DNA of 64,000 nt from Scytonema sp. RU_4_4 (GTDB lineage Bacteria > Cyanobacteriota > Cyanobacteriia > Cyanobacteriales > Nostocaceae). The notes beneath the pieces were generated by a model. The model saw only the letters and a list, made by a program, of their open reading frames with translations, was not told where the DNA came from and searched no databases. Position 1 is the stretch's first letter. Each line of letters begins with the position of its first letter. The translations under genes and the position numbers were made by a program. Where the stretch lies: assembly GCA_012031965.1 (NCBI GenBank), contig JAAUSC010000008.1, positions 1 to 64,000 on the forward strand, read 5' to 3'. Below, in pieces: positions 52,078 through 60,341 of the stretch.

Positions 52078-53801
52078 ATGCAAACTCAAGAGCCAACCGC
52101 TGTTAACAGCAATCTGGAAATAAGACAAGTGTCAGCCGATCAGCCCTCTACTGACGAACTCCCGACTATAGAATTTCCCTCGCCAGGGAAATTCAAAGCT
52201 AGTTCTTGGCGCATTCATCAGAAAATTGGCTATGGGTACTTTTTAGCAATTGGAATTGGTTTTTTAGGCTCGTTGACTGGGTTGGTTATCTCCAATTTGT
52301 ATTTGGGGATAGAAACTAAAAAATTAGGACATGCCCAGTTTCAAGCACAACTGCTTAGTAGCTACAAAGATACTTTGGTAGGGGCACAATTGCACAGCTC
52401 CAACTTGGTTGCTGTCGTGGAAGATCCAGAACTTCTTAGCAGCAAAAGAGACGAATTCTTAAGCAGTGTGAACGAAGCTAAGAAGATAAAGGAAAAGATT
52501 ACGGGATTTATAAACGACAAGCCTGGAGATTTAGCATTCGCGGAAGCCACTCTACGAACCGTATTGAAAGACTACTCCACGAACCTAGAATCTTACGTTA
52601 ATCAAATTGAGACAATCTTGCAGCCGCTTAAGGAGCAGCCACAACAGCAACAGCAGATTTCTGTAGTACGAAACCAGTTGCTAACAGTGATGAGTAGTGA
52701 AACAGCCATGCGGCTAGATGAGATACGTAAACGATTAACGAAGAGCTTGCAATCTGCTCAACAGCAAGAGCATGAAAGAATAAGACATGTGGAGGTAGCA
52801 AAAGGAGTTGAGAGGTTGATCGTTATAGTGAGTATGCTGCTGTCAGTCGCGATCGCCGCAATTGTAGCATGGCGTACTTCGCGGCGATCGCCGAACCAGT
52901 CATTCTTGTCACTCAAGTCGCTGAACAGGTTGCGAAAAAGTCTAACTTTAATTTGCGAGCTCCTATCAGTACAGAAGATGAAATAGGATCATTAGCCAAA
53001 TCCCTCAATCGTTTGATTGAGCGGGTTTCTGAGCGAACTAAAGAATTGCAGCAAGCCAAAGAATTAGCAGAAACTGCGAATCAAGCAAAAGGTCAGTTTC
53101 TGGCAAATATTAGTCACGAGTTACGCACACCGTTGAATGCCATTATTGGCTTAAGCCAACTGCTACACGATGATGCGATCGATTTTGGCATATCAAAAGA
53201 TTTTATTGATGACCTTGAATCTATCAACGGTGCAGGTAGGCATTTATTGATATTAATCAACGATATCCTCGACTTATCAAAAATTGAAGCGGGGAAAATG
53301 ACTTTTTACCCAGAGACATTTGAACTCGCCACGCTCATTAATAACGTTGTTTTCACAGTCAAGCCTTTGGTGGAGAAAAATAGCAATATTTTAGAAGTGA
53401 ATTTTGATGGGGAGCTTGGCATTATGTACACGGACCAAACTAAGCTACGACAAGTGCTGTACAATCTGCTGAGCAACGCTGCCAAGTTTACCACCAACGG
53501 TAGGGTAACATTTATGGTCAAGAGGGAAATATTAGACATTCAAGGAAGTCATGCTTCTGGAATGATTACGTTTACTGTTGAAGACACAGGGATTGGTATG
53601 TCCTATCATCAACAGCAGCAGCTGTTTAAACCCTTTTCCCAAGGGGATGCTTCGACAACGAAAAAATATGGTGGGACCGGACTGGGGTTAGCAATTAGCC
53701 GTCACTTTTGTCACATGATGGGTGGTGAGATTTTTGTCACGAGTGAACCCGGAGTCGGATCAATTTTCACCGTTCGCCTTCCACTGATCGCTCGGGATTA
53801 G
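52078..53801 (+). pseudogene. membrane sensor histidine kinase split by a 1-nt frameshift
   Basis: The N-terminal part (52078 to about 52883) encodes a cytoplasmic tail, a membrane helix (about 50-75, YFLAIGIGFLGSLTGLVISNLYLG), a helical extracytoplasmic sensor region and a second helix ([19 protein letters not shown]). At 52884 the frame must shift: the continuation [16 protein letters not shown] begins one base over and gives HAMP (about 270-325), HisKA with its His at 53115 ([12 protein letters not shown]) and HATPase (DTGIGMS, GTGLGLA) up to 53801. Without the shift translation runs to a stop at 52986. The shift point is the HIP1 octamer at 52884-52891, preceded by CG; one extra G restores a 574-residue kinase. 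No receiver domain is attached. Confidence 0.85.
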
Positions 53802-53996: not shown

Positions 53997-55718
53997 ATGA
54001 TGGTGGTCGCCATGATTCGTCCAGGAATGTTACTTCAAGGACGCTACCGAATTATCTGTCAAATTGGTGGTGGTGGTTTTGGTAAAGTATTTGAAGTGGA
54101 TGATGGTGGCACTCCCAAAGTCTTGAAAGTTTTGAGCCTAGAGCGTTTCTATAACCCAACAATTAAACAAAAGGCGATCGCCCTATTTCAACGAGAAGCT
54201 GAATTACTAGGTCGTTTCAAGCACCCTGGTATTCCGCGCGTAGAGTTAAATGGGTATTTCACTTGGTCTGATGGCAATGGTGAGCCATTACACTGTCTAG
54301 TGATGGAGAAAATACCAGGTTCAAATTTGCAACAGTGGTTACAAGACAGAGGAAATCAACCACTCACCACAGAACAAGCTCACGCATGGTTAATCCAACT
54401 CATAGAAATACTTAACGAACTGCATCAGCATCAATATCTTCATCGAGATATTAAACTCTCTAACATCATGCTAAAACCTGATGGGCAATTGGTGTTGATT
54501 GACTTTGGTGCTGTTAGGGAAATCACAAACTCTTACTTAGAAAAACAACAAGGTAAACACACTGGAACGGTACTTGTTTCTCCTGGGTTCACCCCTCCAG
54601 AGCAAGCTGAAGGTCACGCTGTCCCACAGTCAGATTTTTTTGCGCTCGGACGAACTTTTGTCTCTTTACTGACAGGAAAATCTCCTCTCGATTTTCCTAG
54701 AAGCTCGGAAACAGGAGAACTCATTTGGCGTGATCAAGCAACTCATGTTTCCCTAGAATTAGCAAACTTAATTGACCGCCTCATCGCTCCTTTTTCTGGA
54801 CAAAGACCTCAAAATTGCCAGGAAATATTAAATTACCTTAAAGGCAATCAACAGATTGAACCACTCTCTCAAGGTGGAGCAGATACCTTACCACCAGGTA
54901 CAGATTTTGGAGTTAATACTTTAGGTTTGAACAGCTTCTTAAAAAATACAGTTTCTCTTGTCTTTAAGTCAGATAAAAAAAATGTTGATAGACAGAAAAA
55001 GACACAGGATAAACTTTCCAAAAAACGTCGTTTTCAGTTTTGGATGGCTGGCTTATTACTCTTTGGTAGTGGAGGCATAAATTTATGGAAATCGACTCCA
55101 GAAATAGCATTAAACCTCAATGATTTAGGATTTACAAAATACGAAGAGAAAAGTTTTGATACTGCCAAGATATATTATCACTTGGCTATCTTTTTTAACC
55201 CAAAAATACCAGAACCTGACTACAACTTAGGCTTGCTTTATGAAGACCAGAAGAAATTAGATCAAGCTCAGAATATGTATAAGATTGCTGTGCATAAGGG
55301 TTATGATAGAGCTTACAACAATTTAGCACGTTTAAATATTTTAAATAAACAATATACAACAGCGGTGACATTACTACGAAAAGGATTGCCATTTGCTTAT
55401 GATGATAAAGCCAAATATACAATGCTGAAAAACTTGGGTTGGGCGTATTTAGAACAAGGAAATTACCAAGAAGCGCAAAACTTTCTTCAAAAAGCAATCA
55501 ATATTAATAGCGAGCGCCCTGCTGCATATTGTCTTCAAGCCAAAGTTTTAGAAAAGCAAAATAATAAGCAAGGAGAGTTATCAGCTTTAAAAAATTGCAT
55601 TAAATATAAAAAATCAGGAACGACAGAAGAAAAACAGTGGTCTGATGAAGCAACAAAAAAAATTGGGAAAATCTCACAATCACCCTCAAATTCTAAAACT
55701 TCAAGGACTCAATCATGA
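53997..55718 (+). CDS. membrane Ser/Thr protein kinase with TPR repeats
   Basis: A 573-residue kinase. Residues about 15-270 are a Hanks-type kinase: GGGGFGKVFEV (P-loop), catalytic Asp151 in LHRDIKLSN, DFGA, and SPGFTPPEQAEG in the activation region. A linker and one membrane helix (FQFWMAGLLLFGSGGINLW, near 350) are followed by an extracytoplasmic TPR region (about 375-545). The kinase would face the cytoplasm and the TPRs the periplasm. The stop overlaps the start of the next gene (ATGA), so the pair is translationally coupled. Start ATG 53997; 54012 (MIRPG) is also plausible. Substrates are unknown. Confidence 0.92.
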   Translation: MMVVAMIRPGMLLQGRYRIICQIGGGGFGKVFEVDDGGTPKVLKVLSLERFYNPTIKQKAIALFQREAELLGRFKHPGIPRVELNGYFTWSDGNGEPLHCLVMEKIPGSNLQQWLQDRGNQPLTTEQAHAWLIQLIEILNELHQHQYLHRDIKLSNIMLKPDGQLVLIDFGAVREITNSYLEKQQGKHTGTVLVSPGFTPPEQAEGHAVPQSDFFALGRTFVSLLTGKSPLDFPRSSETGELIWRDQATHVSLELANLIDRLIAPFSGQRPQNCQEILNYLKGNQQIEPLSQGGADTLPPGTDFGVNTLGLNSFLKNTVSLVFKSDKKNVDRQKKTQDKLSKKRRFQFWMAGLLLFGSGGINLWKSTPEIALNLNDLGFTKYEEKSFDTAKIYYHLAIFFNPKIPEPDYNLGLLYEDQKKLDQAQNMYKIAVHKGYDRAYNNLARLNILNKQYTTAVTLLRKGLPFAYDDKAKYTMLKNLGWAYLEQGNYQEAQNFLQKAININSERPAAYCLQAKVLEKQNNKQGELSALKNCIKYKKSGTTEEKQWSDEATKKIGKISQSPSNSKTSRTQS

Positions 55719-56653
55719 AGTTCAGTGCGCTACCAAAAAACTGGATAGTAAAGAGTAAAAAAACTAAAATTTCTGTTTGTTTTTTTGCTATTTTCTTATT
55801 GCTTTTCATATTAATAACACCAATTTTTCCAGCAGCACAGAGTACTCAAGTCAGTCAAATTCCCCTAGCTGAATGCAGACGTGCTCGAAGTGGCGATCCT
55901 CGCAGTCCTAGCAACCCTGATATTCCCTACATTATCAGTCCTCGCCGAACATTGCTACTGACTGACAAGCCGAAGCTAAGCTGGAATCAAGTTTTGGGTG
56001 TTAAAAGCTATGATGTCAGTTTACAAAAAGGAGATTCGGTTGTTTGGCAAACAAAAGTAAATACCAATCAAGTTGTGTATCCAGGAGAACCAAGACTAGA
56101 AGCAGGTGTGGAATATTCGCTGATTGTCAAAGCTGACAACGGTAAATTATCAACAGATGAAAAACCAAATGTACAGGGTTTTAGTCTTCTGTCCCAGGAA
56201 GAAACACAAGTTGTAAAAGCAGCCATAACCCAACTGAACAATCAAAAAGTATCTGACAAAGTAAAAGCTCTACACAGTGCTTTTTTTTATATCGGTGCTG
56301 ACTTAAAATCAGAGGCGATTGAAACACTAGAAGCCTTGATTACTGGTGGTATTAAAGAAATGTCCATCTATCGAAAGCTTGGTAATCTCTACTGGCAAAC
56401 AGGAGTAAATGTGCTAGCTGAGACTCATTATTTAAATGCACATAAATTGGCAACAACTCATAAAGATATTGTACAGCAAGCACAGATTGCCGAAGCTTTG
56501 GGGAATTTATATCTAGCGGTAGACGACGAAAAAGCAGCTATGAAATGGCTGACTCAAGCACGAGATAGTTACAAAACCTTAGGTCATACGAAAAGAGTAG
56601 AAGAACTAGATGAGCAGATAAAAGAATTGAAAACAGACAAAGCTACTGTGTAA
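55715..56653 (+). CDS. anchored TPR-like protein coupled to the Ser/Thr kinase
   Basis: A 312-residue protein with an N-terminal membrane anchor or signal (about 19-42, ISVCFFAIFLLLFILITPIF). Then come a beta-rich stretch (about 70-150; KPKLSWNQVLGVKSYDVSLQKGD, LEAGVEYSLIVKAD) like an Ig/fibronectin-type fold, and a helical TPR-like C-terminus (about 190-305). I do not recognise a named family; DUF928-type proteins near cyanobacterial CHAT genes have a similar layout. It overlaps the kinase gene by 4 bp, so the two are made together and both place a TPR region outside the membrane. Confidence 0.75.
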   Translation: MKFSALPKNWIVKSKKTKISVCFFAIFLLLFILITPIFPAAQSTQVSQIPLAECRRARSGDPRSPSNPDIPYIISPRRTLLLTDKPKLSWNQVLGVKSYDVSLQKGDSVVWQTKVNTNQVVYPGEPRLEAGVEYSLIVKADNGKLSTDEKPNVQGFSLLSQEETQVVKAAITQLNNQKVSDKVKALHSAFFYIGADLKSEAIETLEALITGGIKEMSIYRKLGNLYWQTGVNVLAETHYLNAHKLATTHKDIVQQAQIAEALGNLYLAVDDEKAAMKWLTQARDSYKTLGHTKRVEELDEQIKELKTDKATV

Positions 56654-57043
56654 ATTTTCAATTAAGATACTAATACTAGTACAGCGCGGCAGAAAAAACT
56701 AAACGGTTAGGAATAGCTTAAAACCCTTTAGAACTTACGCACCACCTCCCTTGAAACCCGGTTTCTTCGTTCGTATTTGGTTGCGAAACAGACAATTTTT
56801 GGTAGAAACCGGGTTTCTTTGCGTAAGTCCTACCCTTATTTTATAGGTATTTTTCTCTCCTGAATTCTGGAGCGCGTAGCGGGGCTAGCCCGTTCTGACT
56901 CTAGCTGCGGAGCGTAGGTAGGGGGAACGCTTCTGACTTGCACTAGTATCCGGAATGGTGTGATTTCTGTTGGTATACATATATGTCTTTAACTGAAAGT
57001 GAAACGTGTTTTAGAAATCACCCAACAAGAGGAGTTTTCCCAA
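56654..57043. other. region with a MITE-like element and GC-rich repeats
   Basis: Holds the second copy of the 102-bp inverted-repeat element (separate entry), then at 56868-56940 the GGAGCGCGTAGCGGGGC-type dispersed repeat. It splits the kinase/TPR pair from the TPR-CHAT part of the cluster. Confidence 0.6.
56730..56831. mobile_element. 102-bp MITE-like inverted-repeat element, copy 2
   Basis: Reverse complement of the element at 35499-35600 with a small number of differences. Ends are AGAACTTACGCA (56730-56741) and TGCGTAAGTCCT (56820-56831). The internal palindrome GAAACCCGGTTTC/GAAACCGGGTTTC is conserved. Same length of 102 bp. Confidence 0.72.
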
Positions 57044-57334
57044 ATGAGTGACCAAAAATTATACAAAAATCAAGATATCCGTAAAGCAGAAGCCGAAGAA
57101 CTGTTAACACAAGCTAATCAACAATTAGGAGAAGCTTTACAATCTTACCAACAAGCACTGGATATCTATCAGGACATGGGCGAAGAGACTGTTGCTACTC
57201 TCATCTGGTATATTATCTCTCATAGTAAGATTCTGACTATTACTGGCACAGATAAGTTTGGTCATTCTAAAATAAACTTAAGTGCTGCCAGTGGTCTATT
57301 GTCTAAACGCTCAAGGATAAACCGTCATAAGTAA
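57044..57334 (+). CDS. short TPR-containing protein, possibly a gene remnant
   Basis: A 96-residue frame from ATG 57044 (MSDQKLYKN), preceded by AGAGGAG at somewhat long spacing. Residues about 20-45 (LTQANQQLGEALQSYQQALDIYQDMGEE) match the TPR repeats of the following TPR-CHAT protein, where QALxxYQQALxxYQKIGD recurs. The C-terminal 45 residues have no repeat character. It may be the decayed 5' end of a duplicated TPR gene or a small adaptor that pairs with the larger protein. Coding status is uncertain. Confidence 0.5.
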   Translation: MSDQKLYKNQDIRKAEAEELLTQANQQLGEALQSYQQALDIYQDMGEETVATLIWYIISHSKILTITGTDKFGHSKINLSAASGLLSKRSRINRHK

Positions 57335-57500
57335 AGTAAAACTTAGTAAATCATCTATCTCAATGCTTGAATGCGATTTCAGTAAAGTTTATTATAGGTG
57401 CATCCCAAGATTTTTCAACAAACAATTTTTCATGACGAAATGTTTCAGTTGCTTATTTTTTCAATAAGCAACTCTTCATTTTGATAAAAAAAAATTTTTC

Positions 57501-60341
57501 ATGCATTTATCTCATTTTGTTCGCTTTGGCGCGATCGCATTGATTTTGTGTTTATTAAACGCCTCAGTTTATGAGGGAAAACGACCACTTGTACGCGGTC
57601 GTTCTAACACCGTAAGTCATTCTTTTAGAACACTCTTACAAGCACAAAAACCTGAGACTCTAAAGAAAGAAGCAGAGCAACTATATAAACAAGGAGTTGA
57701 CCAATACGATAGCAGTCAGTTTCAAAAAGCTATAGAAACCTACCAACAAGCGCTAGTTCTTTACCAAAAAATAGGTGACAAAAAAGGTATTGGTGACACA
57801 CTTAATAGTCTAGGAGCAGCTTCCAAAGAGCTAGGTCAATATCCGCAAGCACTGAAATTTTATCAGCAAGCGTTGGCGAGCAGTCGAGAAGTCGGTGTTG
57901 GCAAAGTTCCCGACAAGGAAGAACAGAAAGCAACTGGAATTATCCTCGATAATATTGGGTTCGTTTATCAGTCTATGGGAGAGTCTTCCCAAGCACTGAA
58001 ATATTATCAGCAAAGCCTTAACTTAATGCAAAAAATAGAAGATAAACTAGGTGTAGGCTCTGCCCTGAATAGTATTGGTGGAATCTATTACGAAACAGGA
58101 CAATATTCCAAAGCACTTAAGTTTTTTCAACAAGCTTTGGTAAGTGTCCGAAAAGCTCAATCCTCTCTAGAAGAAGCAAATAACCTTAATGGTATTGGGC
58201 TGGTTTACAGCGAATTGGGTCAATATTCTCAAGCACTCAAATTCTATCAGCAAGCTTTAGCCATTTGGGAAAAAATTGGTGACCAAGAAGGTGAAGCCAC
58301 GACTCTTCATAACATTGGCTTTGCTTATAACCAGATGAAGAAATATTCTCAAGCTCTCAATTATTATCAGCAAGCTTTAGCAGTTTTTAGAAAAATAGAT
58401 AATCAAACAAAGATTGGTAGCACTCTCAATAATATAGGATTTGCTTATCAACAATTAGGACAGTATTCGCAAGCACTCAAATCTCTTAAGCAAGCGTTGA
58501 CAATTCTTCAACAAGTAGGAGAACGTACTGTTGTTGGGCATACTCTTGATAGTATGGGAAGCGCTTATAAAGATATGGGCAAAGATTCCCAAGCTTTAAC
58601 GTTCTATCAGCAAGCTTTAGCAGTCAGTCGAGAAGTTGGTGACCGACCTGCAGAACGAATGACACTTGGAAATATTGGGGATTTACTGGCGCGGCAAAAC
58701 AAGCCACAATTAGCAATTATTTTCTACAAGCAATCTGTTAATGTGACTGAAGCCATACGCACTGAATTGCGATCGCTTCCACAAGAACAACAGCAATCTT
58801 ACACTGCAACTATTGCTGATAATTATCGCCGTTTAGCTGACTTACTGCTGCAACAAGACAGAGTACTAGAAGCACAGCAAGTTTTAGATTTACTCAAGAT
58901 TCAAGAACTAAATGATTACCTGCGTGATGTTCGGGGGAATGAAAAAACTTCCAAAGGAGTTGAGTCACCGTCTCCAGAACAATCAATTAATCAAGGGTTG
59001 AAAGCTATAGCTGACAAACAAATTCAAATCAGCAGACAACTCAGCGAACTGCAAAAAATTCCACCAACTAACAGGAAACCTGAAGAAAAGGAAAAAATCG
59101 TCGCATTGGAGGCAAATCTTCTCACCGAATTTAACCAATTTATTGACAGCCCAGAAGTGAATGCTTGGTTAGAACAGCTTAGCCCAAAAGCATTACAACA
59201 GATTGTACCATTAGGTTTTCTAAACAGCTTGCGAGATAACTTGCAACGTCTTAACCAAAACGCTGTTCTGTTGTATCCGTTGATTTTAGAAAACCGTATA
59301 GAATTGGTATTGACAACCCCAAAGACACCACCAATTCATCGTAGTGTTTCTATAAAAAAAGAAGAACTCAATCGAGCAATCGTAGATTTCCGTAGCGCCT
59401 TAGAAACTCCTGAATCTAACGTTACAGTTCCAGCCCAAAAGCTGTATGAATTGTTAATTAAACCGATAGAAAAAGAACTGGCAAATGCAGATGCTAAAAC
59501 AATTATCTATGCACCTGATGGACCATTACGTTACATACCCCTAGCTGCTTTATATGACGGTAAACAATGGTTAGCGCAGCGCTTCCGCACTAACAATATT
59601 ACTGCTGTGAGTTTAACAGATCTTGATACTCAACCTTTACCTAAAATAAAAGTTTTAGCGGGAGCAACGACACAGCGTCATGTCGTACAAATTGAGTCTA
59701 CTTCATTACCATTTAAAGCACTAGAATATGCAGGAGCAGAGGTCAAAAATCTCGCTACCATGATGCCAGGAACCAAGACACTTTTAGATAATGAATTTAA
59801 CCGCCAAACAATCATTCCTTATCTAAATATCTACACAATTATTCATATGGCAACTCACGCCAAATTTGTCAACGGTAAGCCAGAATACTCTTTTATTTTA
59901 ATGGGCGATGGTGATTTAATCAAGCTATCTGATATTCAACAGTTATCTTTGCCAAATGTAGATTTGGTTGTGTTAAGTGCTTGCGAAACAGCAGTAGGTG
60001 ACCAAATAGGTAAAGGAGAAGAAATTTTAGGTTTTGGTTACCAAATACAGCGTACGGGAGCAAGAGCGGCGATCGCCTCTTTATGGTCTGTCAGCGATGG
60101 TGGAACAGAAGCTTTAATGAATGCCTTTTACGCCTTCTTAAGTCAAGGCAAAATGAGCAAAGCAGAAGCTTTACGTCAAGCACAAGTTGCAATGATTACA
60201 GGCGACTACTCAGGGATAACTCAAGACCAAGACAAAGGAATTCTCAAATCTACACGCGAGAAACTACCAGCAAAAGTAGCTAATCGTTTGAGTCATCCTT
60301 ATTATTGGGCACCTTTCATTTTAATTGGTAATGGTTTGTAA
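57501..60341 (+). CDS. TPR-CHAT domain protein (caspase-like peptidase), exported or anchored
   Basis: A 946-residue protein. An N-terminal hydrophobic segment (about 8-25, FGAIALILCLLNAS) suggests export or membrane anchoring. About nine to ten TPRs follow (about 45-430), most of the form YSQALKFYQQALAxxxKIGD. A helical linker (about 430-640) precedes the C-terminal CHAT domain (about 640-946). The catalytic pair of caspase-like peptidases is present: His786 in IIHMATHAKF and Cys828 in VVLSACETAVGD. GARAAIASLWSVSDGGT and AEALRQAQ near the end are also typical. CHAT proteins cleave after specific residues in signalling or cell-death systems; the substrate here is unknown. The gene lies 166 bp after the short TPR frame. 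Confidence 0.93.
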   Translation: MHLSHFVRFGAIALILCLLNASVYEGKRPLVRGRSNTVSHSFRTLLQAQKPETLKKEAEQLYKQGVDQYDSSQFQKAIETYQQALVLYQKIGDKKGIGDTLNSLGAASKELGQYPQALKFYQQALASSREVGVGKVPDKEEQKATGIILDNIGFVYQSMGESSQALKYYQQSLNLMQKIEDKLGVGSALNSIGGIYYETGQYSKALKFFQQALVSVRKAQSSLEEANNLNGIGLVYSELGQYSQALKFYQQALAIWEKIGDQEGEATTLHNIGFAYNQMKKYSQALNYYQQALAVFRKIDNQTKIGSTLNNIGFAYQQLGQYSQALKSLKQALTILQQVGERTVVGHTLDSMGSAYKDMGKDSQALTFYQQALAVSREVGDRPAERMTLGNIGDLLARQNKPQLAIIFYKQSVNVTEAIRTELRSLPQEQQQSYTATIADNYRRLADLLLQQDRVLEAQQVLDLLKIQELNDYLRDVRGNEKTSKGVESPSPEQSINQGLKAIADKQIQISRQLSELQKIPPTNRKPEEKEKIVALEANLLTEFNQFIDSPEVNAWLEQLSPKALQQIVPLGFLNSLRDNLQRLNQNAVLLYPLILENRIELVLTTPKTPPIHRSVSIKKEELNRAIVDFRSALETPESNVTVPAQKLYELLIKPIEKELANADAKTIIYAPDGPLRYIPLAALYDGKQWLAQRFRTNNITAVSLTDLDTQPLPKIKVLAGATTQRHVVQIESTSLPFKALEYAGAEVKNLATMMPGTKTLLDNEFNRQTIIPYLNIYTIIHMATHAKFVNGKPEYSFILMGDGDLIKLSDIQQLSLPNVDLVVLSACETAVGDQIGKGEEILGFGYQIQRTGARAAIASLWSVSDGGTEALMNAFYAFLSQGKMSKAEALRQAQVAMITGDYSGITQDQDKGILKSTREKLPAKVANRLSHPYYWAPFILIGNGL

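Follow-up and report, generated by a model that had tools for sequence, protein, structure and literature searches.

The locus

The window, by which is meant the whole stretch of 64,000 nucleotides that was analysed, corresponds to contig 2 in a cyanobacterial genome of 7.3 Mb. It contains, on one strand, a run of genes in which a membrane receptor, a partner protein of which Brasilonema and Scytonema hold the closest named relatives (hereafter PART) and a putative protease follow one another, as set out below.

53,997–55,718, plus strand: receptor-like protein of 573 aa, Ser/Thr kinase followed by a probable transmembrane (TM) stretch (residues 346–364) and TPRs (Pfam; HRD149/DFG169)
55,715–56,653, plus strand: PART, exported or membrane-anchored partner of 312 aa, with an FN3-like domain and TPR helices (reading frame, alignment, AlphaFold2 model of the homologue L126, PDB match)
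57,044–57,334 (reading frame listed from 56,999), plus strand: small TPR-like protein of about 96 aa with a conserved start, MSDQ (conservation, dN/dS)
57,501–60,341, plus strand: predicted exported TPR-CHAT caspase-like protease of 946 aa, putative catalytic pair His786/Cys828 (Pfam, hydropathy, alignment)
52,078–53,801, plus strand: sensor histidine kinase with HAMP, HisKA and HATPase domains, its coding sequence divided between two frames; a lineage-specific neighbour, membership uncertain (Pfam, relatives)

The start codon of PART, at 55,715, overlaps the stop codon of the kinase gene on the same strand. An earlier note, made from the letters of this DNA, had proposed a kinase-TPR protein, an anchored TPR partner and a TPR-CHAT protein with an intact His786/Cys828 pair and a hydrophobic N-terminus of its own; the reading frames and Pfam domains are as it described them, alignment gives the same catalytic pair, and the hydrophobic segment is present.

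Conservation of the neighbourhood

Of 59 genomes, that of the window among them, 26 contain PART, at 38 places in all, and 31 PART regions from this set were annotated. A genome collection scanned with the PART alignment yielded 66 loci that were confirmed, of which four are in Chloroflexota and the rest in cyanobacteria, and a match to the PART profile at E 1e-10 occurs in 36 of 292 evenly sampled genomes of the phylum, nine of these 36 having weak partial matches only.

At 63 of the 66 loci a receptor-TPR gene lies within 2.5 kb upstream of PART on the same strand (62 of the 64 with at least 1.5 kb of flank), and the two genes overlap or stand no more than four bases apart in 43 of these 63 pairs, the starts being assigned mechanically, with a gap above 500 bases in seven. 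The loci without a near receptor despite enough flank are L078, where a kinase lies 5 kb upstream on a contig shared with L046, and L135. A CHAT gene is found within 6 kb of PART at 44 of the 66 loci and, where both 6-kb flanks are covered, at 27 of 32, where about 9% would be expected from the 53 CHAT matches per 7.33 Mb of the window genome; the nearest CHAT is on the strand of PART in 43 of the 44 cases. The five fully flanked loci with no CHAT within 6 kb are L105, L109, L115, L118 and L129. Since the PART loci are related to one another, these counts are not independent, and the seeds of the local HMMs come in part from contigs which recur among the 66 loci. The gene neighbourhood is conserved nonetheless, and far above chance. 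In other words, the conserved neighbourhood that the earlier note had named as a check is seen in the relatives, where the receptor and the CHAT gene adjoin PART.

The CHAT genes next to PART do not descend from a single branch. In a quick tree of 40 PART-linked sequences and 26 others (L135 and CHAT domains of fewer than 230 residues being left out), the PART-linked CHATs fall into several clades and the well-supported branches force at least five changes of label, so that different exported CHATs have been recruited to PART repeatedly.

The receptor and its exchangeable inner module

The receptor of the window carries a Hanks-type Ser/Thr kinase domain (Pkinase, E 4.6e-30) together with TPRs. 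Its motifs are HRD at residue 149, DFG at residue 169 and KVLKVL from residue 41, and both HRD and DFG are retained in 18 of 18 kinase-type homologues. The kinase domain also matches the PD-T4-6 kinases of PADLOC with a best E of 1e-103. This match spans residues 11–289 only, and it is accordingly read as kinase-domain similarity, not as membership of that defence system.

The TM stretch of the window kinase is weak, with a 19-mer mean hydropathy of 1.08 just after a KKRR motif; the same place is clearer in relatives, with 1.88 (L072) and 2.08 (L075). The kinase of L076 reaches just 0.92. Over the whole set, 47 of 63 receptors have a 19-mer with a mean of at least 1.5 directly ahead of their TPRs (12 of 18 kinase, 13 of 20 CHAT, 20 of 22 helical and two of three other receptors), as against 0 of 92 control windows taken from inside TPR regions. 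With the threshold at 1.0 the figures become 61 of 63 and four of 92, the exceptions being L076 and L080, an EAD4-TPR protein which has no TM stretch and whose TPRs would therefore be cytosolic.

What lies on the inner side of this stretch differs from locus to locus. Of the 63 receptors, 18 have a kinase (a class assigned by local HMM), 20 a CHAT domain, 22 a helical module, one (L080) an EAD4 domain (Pfam, E 6e-39) and two (L081 and L125) something else. Pfam finds CHAT in 20 of the 21 N-terminal regions of CHAT-type receptors, the 21st, L081, matching TPR alone, and His251 and Cys299 are nearly invariant columns of this inner CHAT. The helical module, marked by LD..LR and WWW motifs, precedes TM stretches (L086:8394–9656 and 21 further receptors, alignment A3); the 22 receptors share no Pfam family for it, and its AlphaFold fold is of low confidence (mean pLDDT 63.7), with no PDB match of E below 1.

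When the module types are laid on the PART tree, which was built from loci with an upstream receptor (L134, with a cut PART, being left out, as L079 and L080 were from alignment A7), they need 10 changes where the minimum is four, although the strongly supported branches alone force only one or two module changes per group. As read from these sequences, the inner module of the receptor is interchangeable, and the kinase is one of several such modules.

The partner protein

The PART of the window has a single, weak Pfam match, to TPR_12 (E 8.1e-6, below the cut-off). Across 64 PARTs, Pfam finds fn3 in seven and TPR_12 in 48. An AlphaFold2 model of the full-length homologue L126, calculated from an alignment of 64 rows, has a pLDDT of 87 and consists of a beta domain (residues 50–118), a second beta domain (144–228) and TPR-like helices (231–358). 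Its best match in the PDB is the C-terminal domain of MtxA, 4z29 (E 8.4e-6), followed by FN3 pairs and TPR proteins. The first beta domain, which we presume to be FecR-like (a label with no database match behind it), is largely missing from the window protein when this is aligned with its longer homologues (alignment A1).

A relationship of PART to DUF928, the domain found in the parallel clusters described below, was considered and set aside. The Pfam matches are weak and few (four of 64 PARTs, best E 0.0022), and hhalign gives a probability of 6.9% over 62 columns, such that PART and DUF928 are treated here as analogous.

The CHAT protein and its predicted export

The CHAT protein of the window has the architecture of a TPR-CHAT protease, in which TPR repeats are followed by the CHAT domain; Pfam gives CHAT with an E of 1.5e-61 and five stretches of TPR_12 (E 1.3e-69). 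The His/Cys pair is kept in all 46 full-length CHAT domains compared, these being the window and 45 of the 49 CHAT reading frames near PART, the other four being too short. The structural relatives listed for this protein, 60 of 87, all align to its TPR part and none to CHAT.

Export was judged by a crude test, that is, by an 11-mer with a mean hydropathy of at least 1.8 near the N-terminus. The window CHAT protein gives 2.97. The test is passed by 57 of 65 PARTs and by 41 of 51 CHAT or TPS (two-partner secretion) proteins near PART, against a background of 52 of 194 other reading frames of at least 300 aa (27%); among the receptors it is positive in three of 18 of the kinase type, two of 21 of the helical type and eight of 19 of the CHAT type. 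Of the 10 CHAT or TPS negatives, L106, L110, L112 and L116 have signal peptides by eye, and among the rest are short or masked sequences and some with odd starts.

Evidence independent of this test comes from the TPS domain, which is fused to CHAT at 12 of the 44 CHAT-bearing PART loci by local HMM, with Pfam confirming the fusion in L051, L052, L053 and L096. Pfam finds no TPS domain in the window CHAT protein. The TPS-CHAT protein of L106 has a weak PADLOC match to BovA (1.2e-4). In Chloroflexota (L083, L084 and L132), the signal of PART is of the lipoprotein type, with a lipobox-like motif, and CHAT has a signal peptide; the CHAT C-termini of these three loci are G-rich and Cys-bearing with a hydrophobic stretch and a basic tail, much like a surface-sorting signal or TM anchor.

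Export of both PART and the CHAT protein is thus predicted with support from signals of several kinds, and the question that the earlier note had posed of the CHAT N-terminus, namely whether it is a membrane signal, finds, as far as sequence signals go, a favourable answer in that most of the CHAT proteins have a predicted export signal or secretion domain. This locus does not stand alone in that respect, since signal-bearing CHATs are common in the window genome: its 7.3 Mb hold 53 CHAT and 26 TPS-domain matches, and 10 of 16 CHAT reading frames examined pass the crude test.

Neighbouring genes

Pfam identifies a histidine kinase and a GGDEF protein as the neighbours of the set in the window. 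The former had been described as a broken sensor kinase, and in the window it is indeed split, whether by a genuine mutation or through an error in assembly. In seven of seven relatives (L039–L045), it is one intact reading frame of 573–581 aa. It is not beside the second Brasilonema-type copies, L046 and L047. Being confined to the Brasilonema-type lineage loci L039–L045, it was rejected as a core part and is better called a lineage-specific neighbour. The c-di-GMP synthase (GGDEF) does follow CHAT in the window, as had been stated, but no GGDEF homologue comes directly after CHAT in the five relatives that cover the stretch (L039, L041, L042, L044 and L045; L040 and L043 end too early), so that the synthase counts as a chance neighbour and was rejected as a member.

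Upstream of other receptors the neighbours are of a different kind. An NB-ARC protein is encoded there at all 10 of the kinase-type loci scanned, out of 18, these 10 having been chosen for a reading frame of 426–542 aa upstream on the same strand. The eight outside the scan are L070–L075 and L077, which have no such reading frame, and L113, which is cut by a contig end. At L070–L075 the upstream reading frame, of 573–581 aa, is the histidine kinase by comparison with L039–L044. The NB-ARC protein of L126 matches PDC-S27 of PADLOC (1e-8). The 33 reading frames upstream of CHAT-type receptors include DUF1822 in 16, Sigma70_r2 in one and HTH families in a few, and the DUF1822 count is compatible with one per locus. 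Where an upstream gene is given a name, as with MetK, the analyst assigned it from sequence.

Parallel DUF928/CHASE2 clusters

A second group of loci has the same general layout with other parts. DUF928 occurs at nine places in the window genome, with CHAT matched no more than about 3 kb away at seven of the nine. The receptors near DUF928 are CHAT-TM-CHASE2 proteins in L136 and L137 (Pfam) and in L139–L141 (local HMM), and TIR-TM-CHASE2 proteins in L142 and L145 (Pfam). Further CHATs and TPS proteins stand around these places, with ShlB at L138 and L142. In L142 (4455–6221, contig C277) and L145 (585–2567, contig C36), the TIR-TM-CHASE2 gene precedes DUF928 and a CHAT gene.

In other genomes, 20 DUF928 loci, picked by hand from a longer list for their spread over genomes, have a CHASE2 protein in 15 cases, an inner CHAT module in 11 of these 15 and a further CHAT in 11; in L164 and L171 the CHASE2 protein is a histidine kinase. 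Given these parallels, the window set is one variant, built from kinase, TPRs and PART, of a layout that recurs with other parts, namely a receptor in the membrane whose inner module can be exchanged, accompanied by a partner and a CHAT protein that are both predicted to be exported.

Relation to known systems

To our knowledge, the known bacterial caspase-like immune proteases act in the cytoplasm; Craspase is cytoplasmic. Its component Csx29 is a TPR-CHAT protease which cleaves Csx30 in a defence pathway (PMC9729208, PMC11106740 and PMC10028731, these and the other papers cited here being represented by excerpts). The protein in the window resembles Csx29 in joining TPRs to a protease of the CHAT family. 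It differs in that the Craspase system is RNA-guided, whereas the window protein has a predicted export signal and adjoins a receptor kinase. A Pfam scan of the window neighbours shows neither gRAMP/Cas7-11 nor Csx30.

The receptor half has published counterparts. EACC2-caspase receptors combine an N-terminal EACC2 and caspase module with C-termini that vary and may carry CHASE2 and TM helices, and many of them have ECF sigma and DUF1822 genes as neighbours (Kaur et al. 2021, eLife, PMC8195603, in the excerpted text). Both the CHAT-TM-TPR loci and the loci with DUF928 and CHASE2 answer to this description, although 'EACC2-like' here denotes resemblance in architecture and neighbours, not a match to a profile of the EACC2 alpha+beta domain. 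The window differs from it on two counts, in that its receptor carries Pkinase in place of an N-terminal caspase or CHAT domain, and in that Pfam finds neither DUF1822 nor sigma/HTH neighbours there. The excerpted text of PMC8195603 describes neither an exported partner, be it PART or DUF928, nor an exported CHAT or TPS-CHAT protein.

HetF of Anabaena, which combines CHAT, one TM helix and TPRs, is a putative protease that needs its active site and is located at midcell and cell junctions (PMC8406250, excerpt). It has in common with the window the CHAT, TM and TPR parts and a putative protease at the membrane. The window, unlike HetF, divides these parts between two proteins, one being signal-TPR-CHAT and the other kinase-TM-TPR. 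The exoproteins of two-partner secretion (PF05860) are a further point of reference, their TPS domain being fused to CHAT at the 12 of 44 related loci mentioned above, but not in the window.

An experimental link may be offered by phage-resistant mutants of Nostoc 7120, which include one in a protein with an FHA N-terminal domain (RD5) and one, RD2, in the CHAT gene all2170, RD2 carrying two mutations (PMC10811720, excerpt). A study of hypermutated sensors describes a CHAT-TIR target in a multicellular bacterium (PMC10907252, excerpt). The terms CHAT, hemagglutinin, FecR and two-partner are all absent from the main text, so far as excerpted, of Kaur et al. 2020 (PMC7159879). In the open-licence literature searched, no paper was found that connects the CHAT domain with two-partner secretion or with CHASE2, and DUF928 surfaces, in the excerpts concerned, only in work on WD40 proteins. 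Within the open-licence literature searched, therefore, the exported half looks undescribed, and the receptor half overlaps the published EACC2-caspase systems.

A proposed mechanism and its alternatives

With both the conserved neighbourhood and the CHAT N-termini as described, a kinase-linked extracytoplasmic CHAT/TPR system is well supported at the sequence level, and this much of the surface-sensing, caspase-like system envisaged in the earlier note stands. The direction it gave, with control from the cytoplasmic kinase, finds no support here; the interchangeable inner module argues for the reverse. Indeed, where the outer parts stay constant and the inner module changes, signalling from outside to inside is favoured.

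On balance, we lean towards the reading in which the set is an envelope-spanning signalling unit, a relay that senses the surface and signals inwards, probably in defence or in the control of cell fate. The receptor would span the inner membrane with its TPRs outside and its output module, here the Ser/Thr kinase, in the cytoplasm; PART would sit on the outer face, free or anchored; and the exported CHAT cysteine protease would meet both, probably through the TPRs. An event at the envelope, such as surface contact, attack by a phage or competitor, or envelope damage, might then activate or release the protease, which would cleave PART or the receptor ectodomain, whereupon the receptor would switch on its output module. 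In the window this would mean phosphorylation of a regulator, for which the NB-ARC-HTH proteins or the histidine kinase encoded next door to receptors of this type are candidates, and in other members a cytosolic CHAT caspase, an EAD4 domain or the helical module would take the place of the kinase on the same TPR part. What the sequences show is the order of the genes, the signals for export, the intact active sites and the exchange of modules; that the proteins touch, that one cuts another, which way the signal runs and what it serves are inferred from these. The NB-ARC and DUF1822 genes beside related receptors are neighbours of the conflict type and speak for a role in defence. Such a role is less direct in the window lineage than at the kinase-type loci with NB-ARC, since it is the histidine kinase and not NB-ARC that lies upstream there.

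If the relay from outside to inside is correct, bacterial immune-type signalling would extend to the cell surface, with a protease outside and kinase, caspase, TIR or EAD4 modules within; a function would be suggested for PART and for DUF928, for neither of which one was found; and there would be a testable handle on how cyanobacteria sense envelope attack or kin. The animal Toll pathway has a protease step outside the cell, together with a partner, then a TM receptor with TIR and a kinase downstream. By analogy, a bacterial design of the Toll type can be imagined, in which a caspase-like protease outside the cell and a secreted partner with FecR, FN3 and TPR parts would relay a signal from the envelope to a membrane receptor whose inner immune module (kinase, caspase, TIR or EAD4) can be exchanged, triggering defence or death in cyanobacteria and Chloroflexota. 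This is put forward tentatively, as something that could be so but probably is not in its full form, and as an analogy alone, with no homology claimed.

The traffic might also run the other way. The exported CHAT protein would then be an effector acting on surface or secreted proteins, such as TPS-type adhesins, a phage receptor or proteins of competitors, with the kinase and PART regulating its activity or release. The TPS-CHAT fusions, which would put the protease on a secreted adhesin-like carrier, are what such an arrangement would look like, as are the ShlB and TPS genes beside signal-bearing CHAT genes in the window genome (L138 and L142), and the RD5 (FHA-domain) and RD2 (CHAT) mutants of Nostoc 7120 point the same way in the excerpted account (PMC10811720). 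It sits uneasily, however, with an inner module that varies while TPR, PART and CHAT stay, a pattern that fits better with an output on the inside, and a cytosolic CHAT caspase, TIR or EAD4 domain would be an odd controller. Signalling from inside to outside is accordingly rather unlikely.

The set could alternatively serve, as HetF does, in the envelope, in division or in differentiation, with a membrane CHAT/TPR assembly at septa or junctions and no part in conflict. The shared CHAT, TM and TPR parts and the location of HetF at midcell and junctions (PMC8406250, excerpt) speak for this, as does the sensor histidine kinase that is the lineage-specific neighbour of the window set. The distribution is nonetheless patchy, the PART profile being matched in just 36 of 292 genomes of the phylum, and the modules and neighbours, TIR, EAD4 and NB-ARC, are of the conflict type. 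Moreover, loci are also present in Microcystis, Crocosphaera and Chloroflexota, and Microcystis and Crocosphaera are unicellular. A purely HetF-like role is, in this light, improbable. Finally, chance adjacency of very large families, for which the 53 CHAT matches of the window genome and the commonness of TPR and kinase genes in such genomes might be cited, is hardly credible in the face of a CHAT gene at 27 of 32 loci where about 9% is expected, one strand in 43 of 44, occurrence in many families and two phyla, and the repeated recruitment of different CHAT clades. An outside-to-inside relay thus remains the reading to which we incline.

The small reading frame between PART and CHAT

The small TPR-like reading frame had been taken for a TPR remnant. 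It is instead a conserved gene, present in the window and in seven of seven relatives (eight of eight loci compared) with a shared start at 57,044, and its dN/dS of 0.31–0.68 reflects a constraint weaker than that on the kinase, PART and CHAT genes (0.15–0.40); conservation and constraint in eight loci together rule out debris. Other small TPR-like reading frames are seen by eye at the equivalent place in L046, L076 and L079. Between PART and this gene, at window positions 56,753–56,817, lies an inverted repeat with AGAAACCGGGTTTCTT, a 16-mer of which the genome holds 42 copies and the reversed control none.
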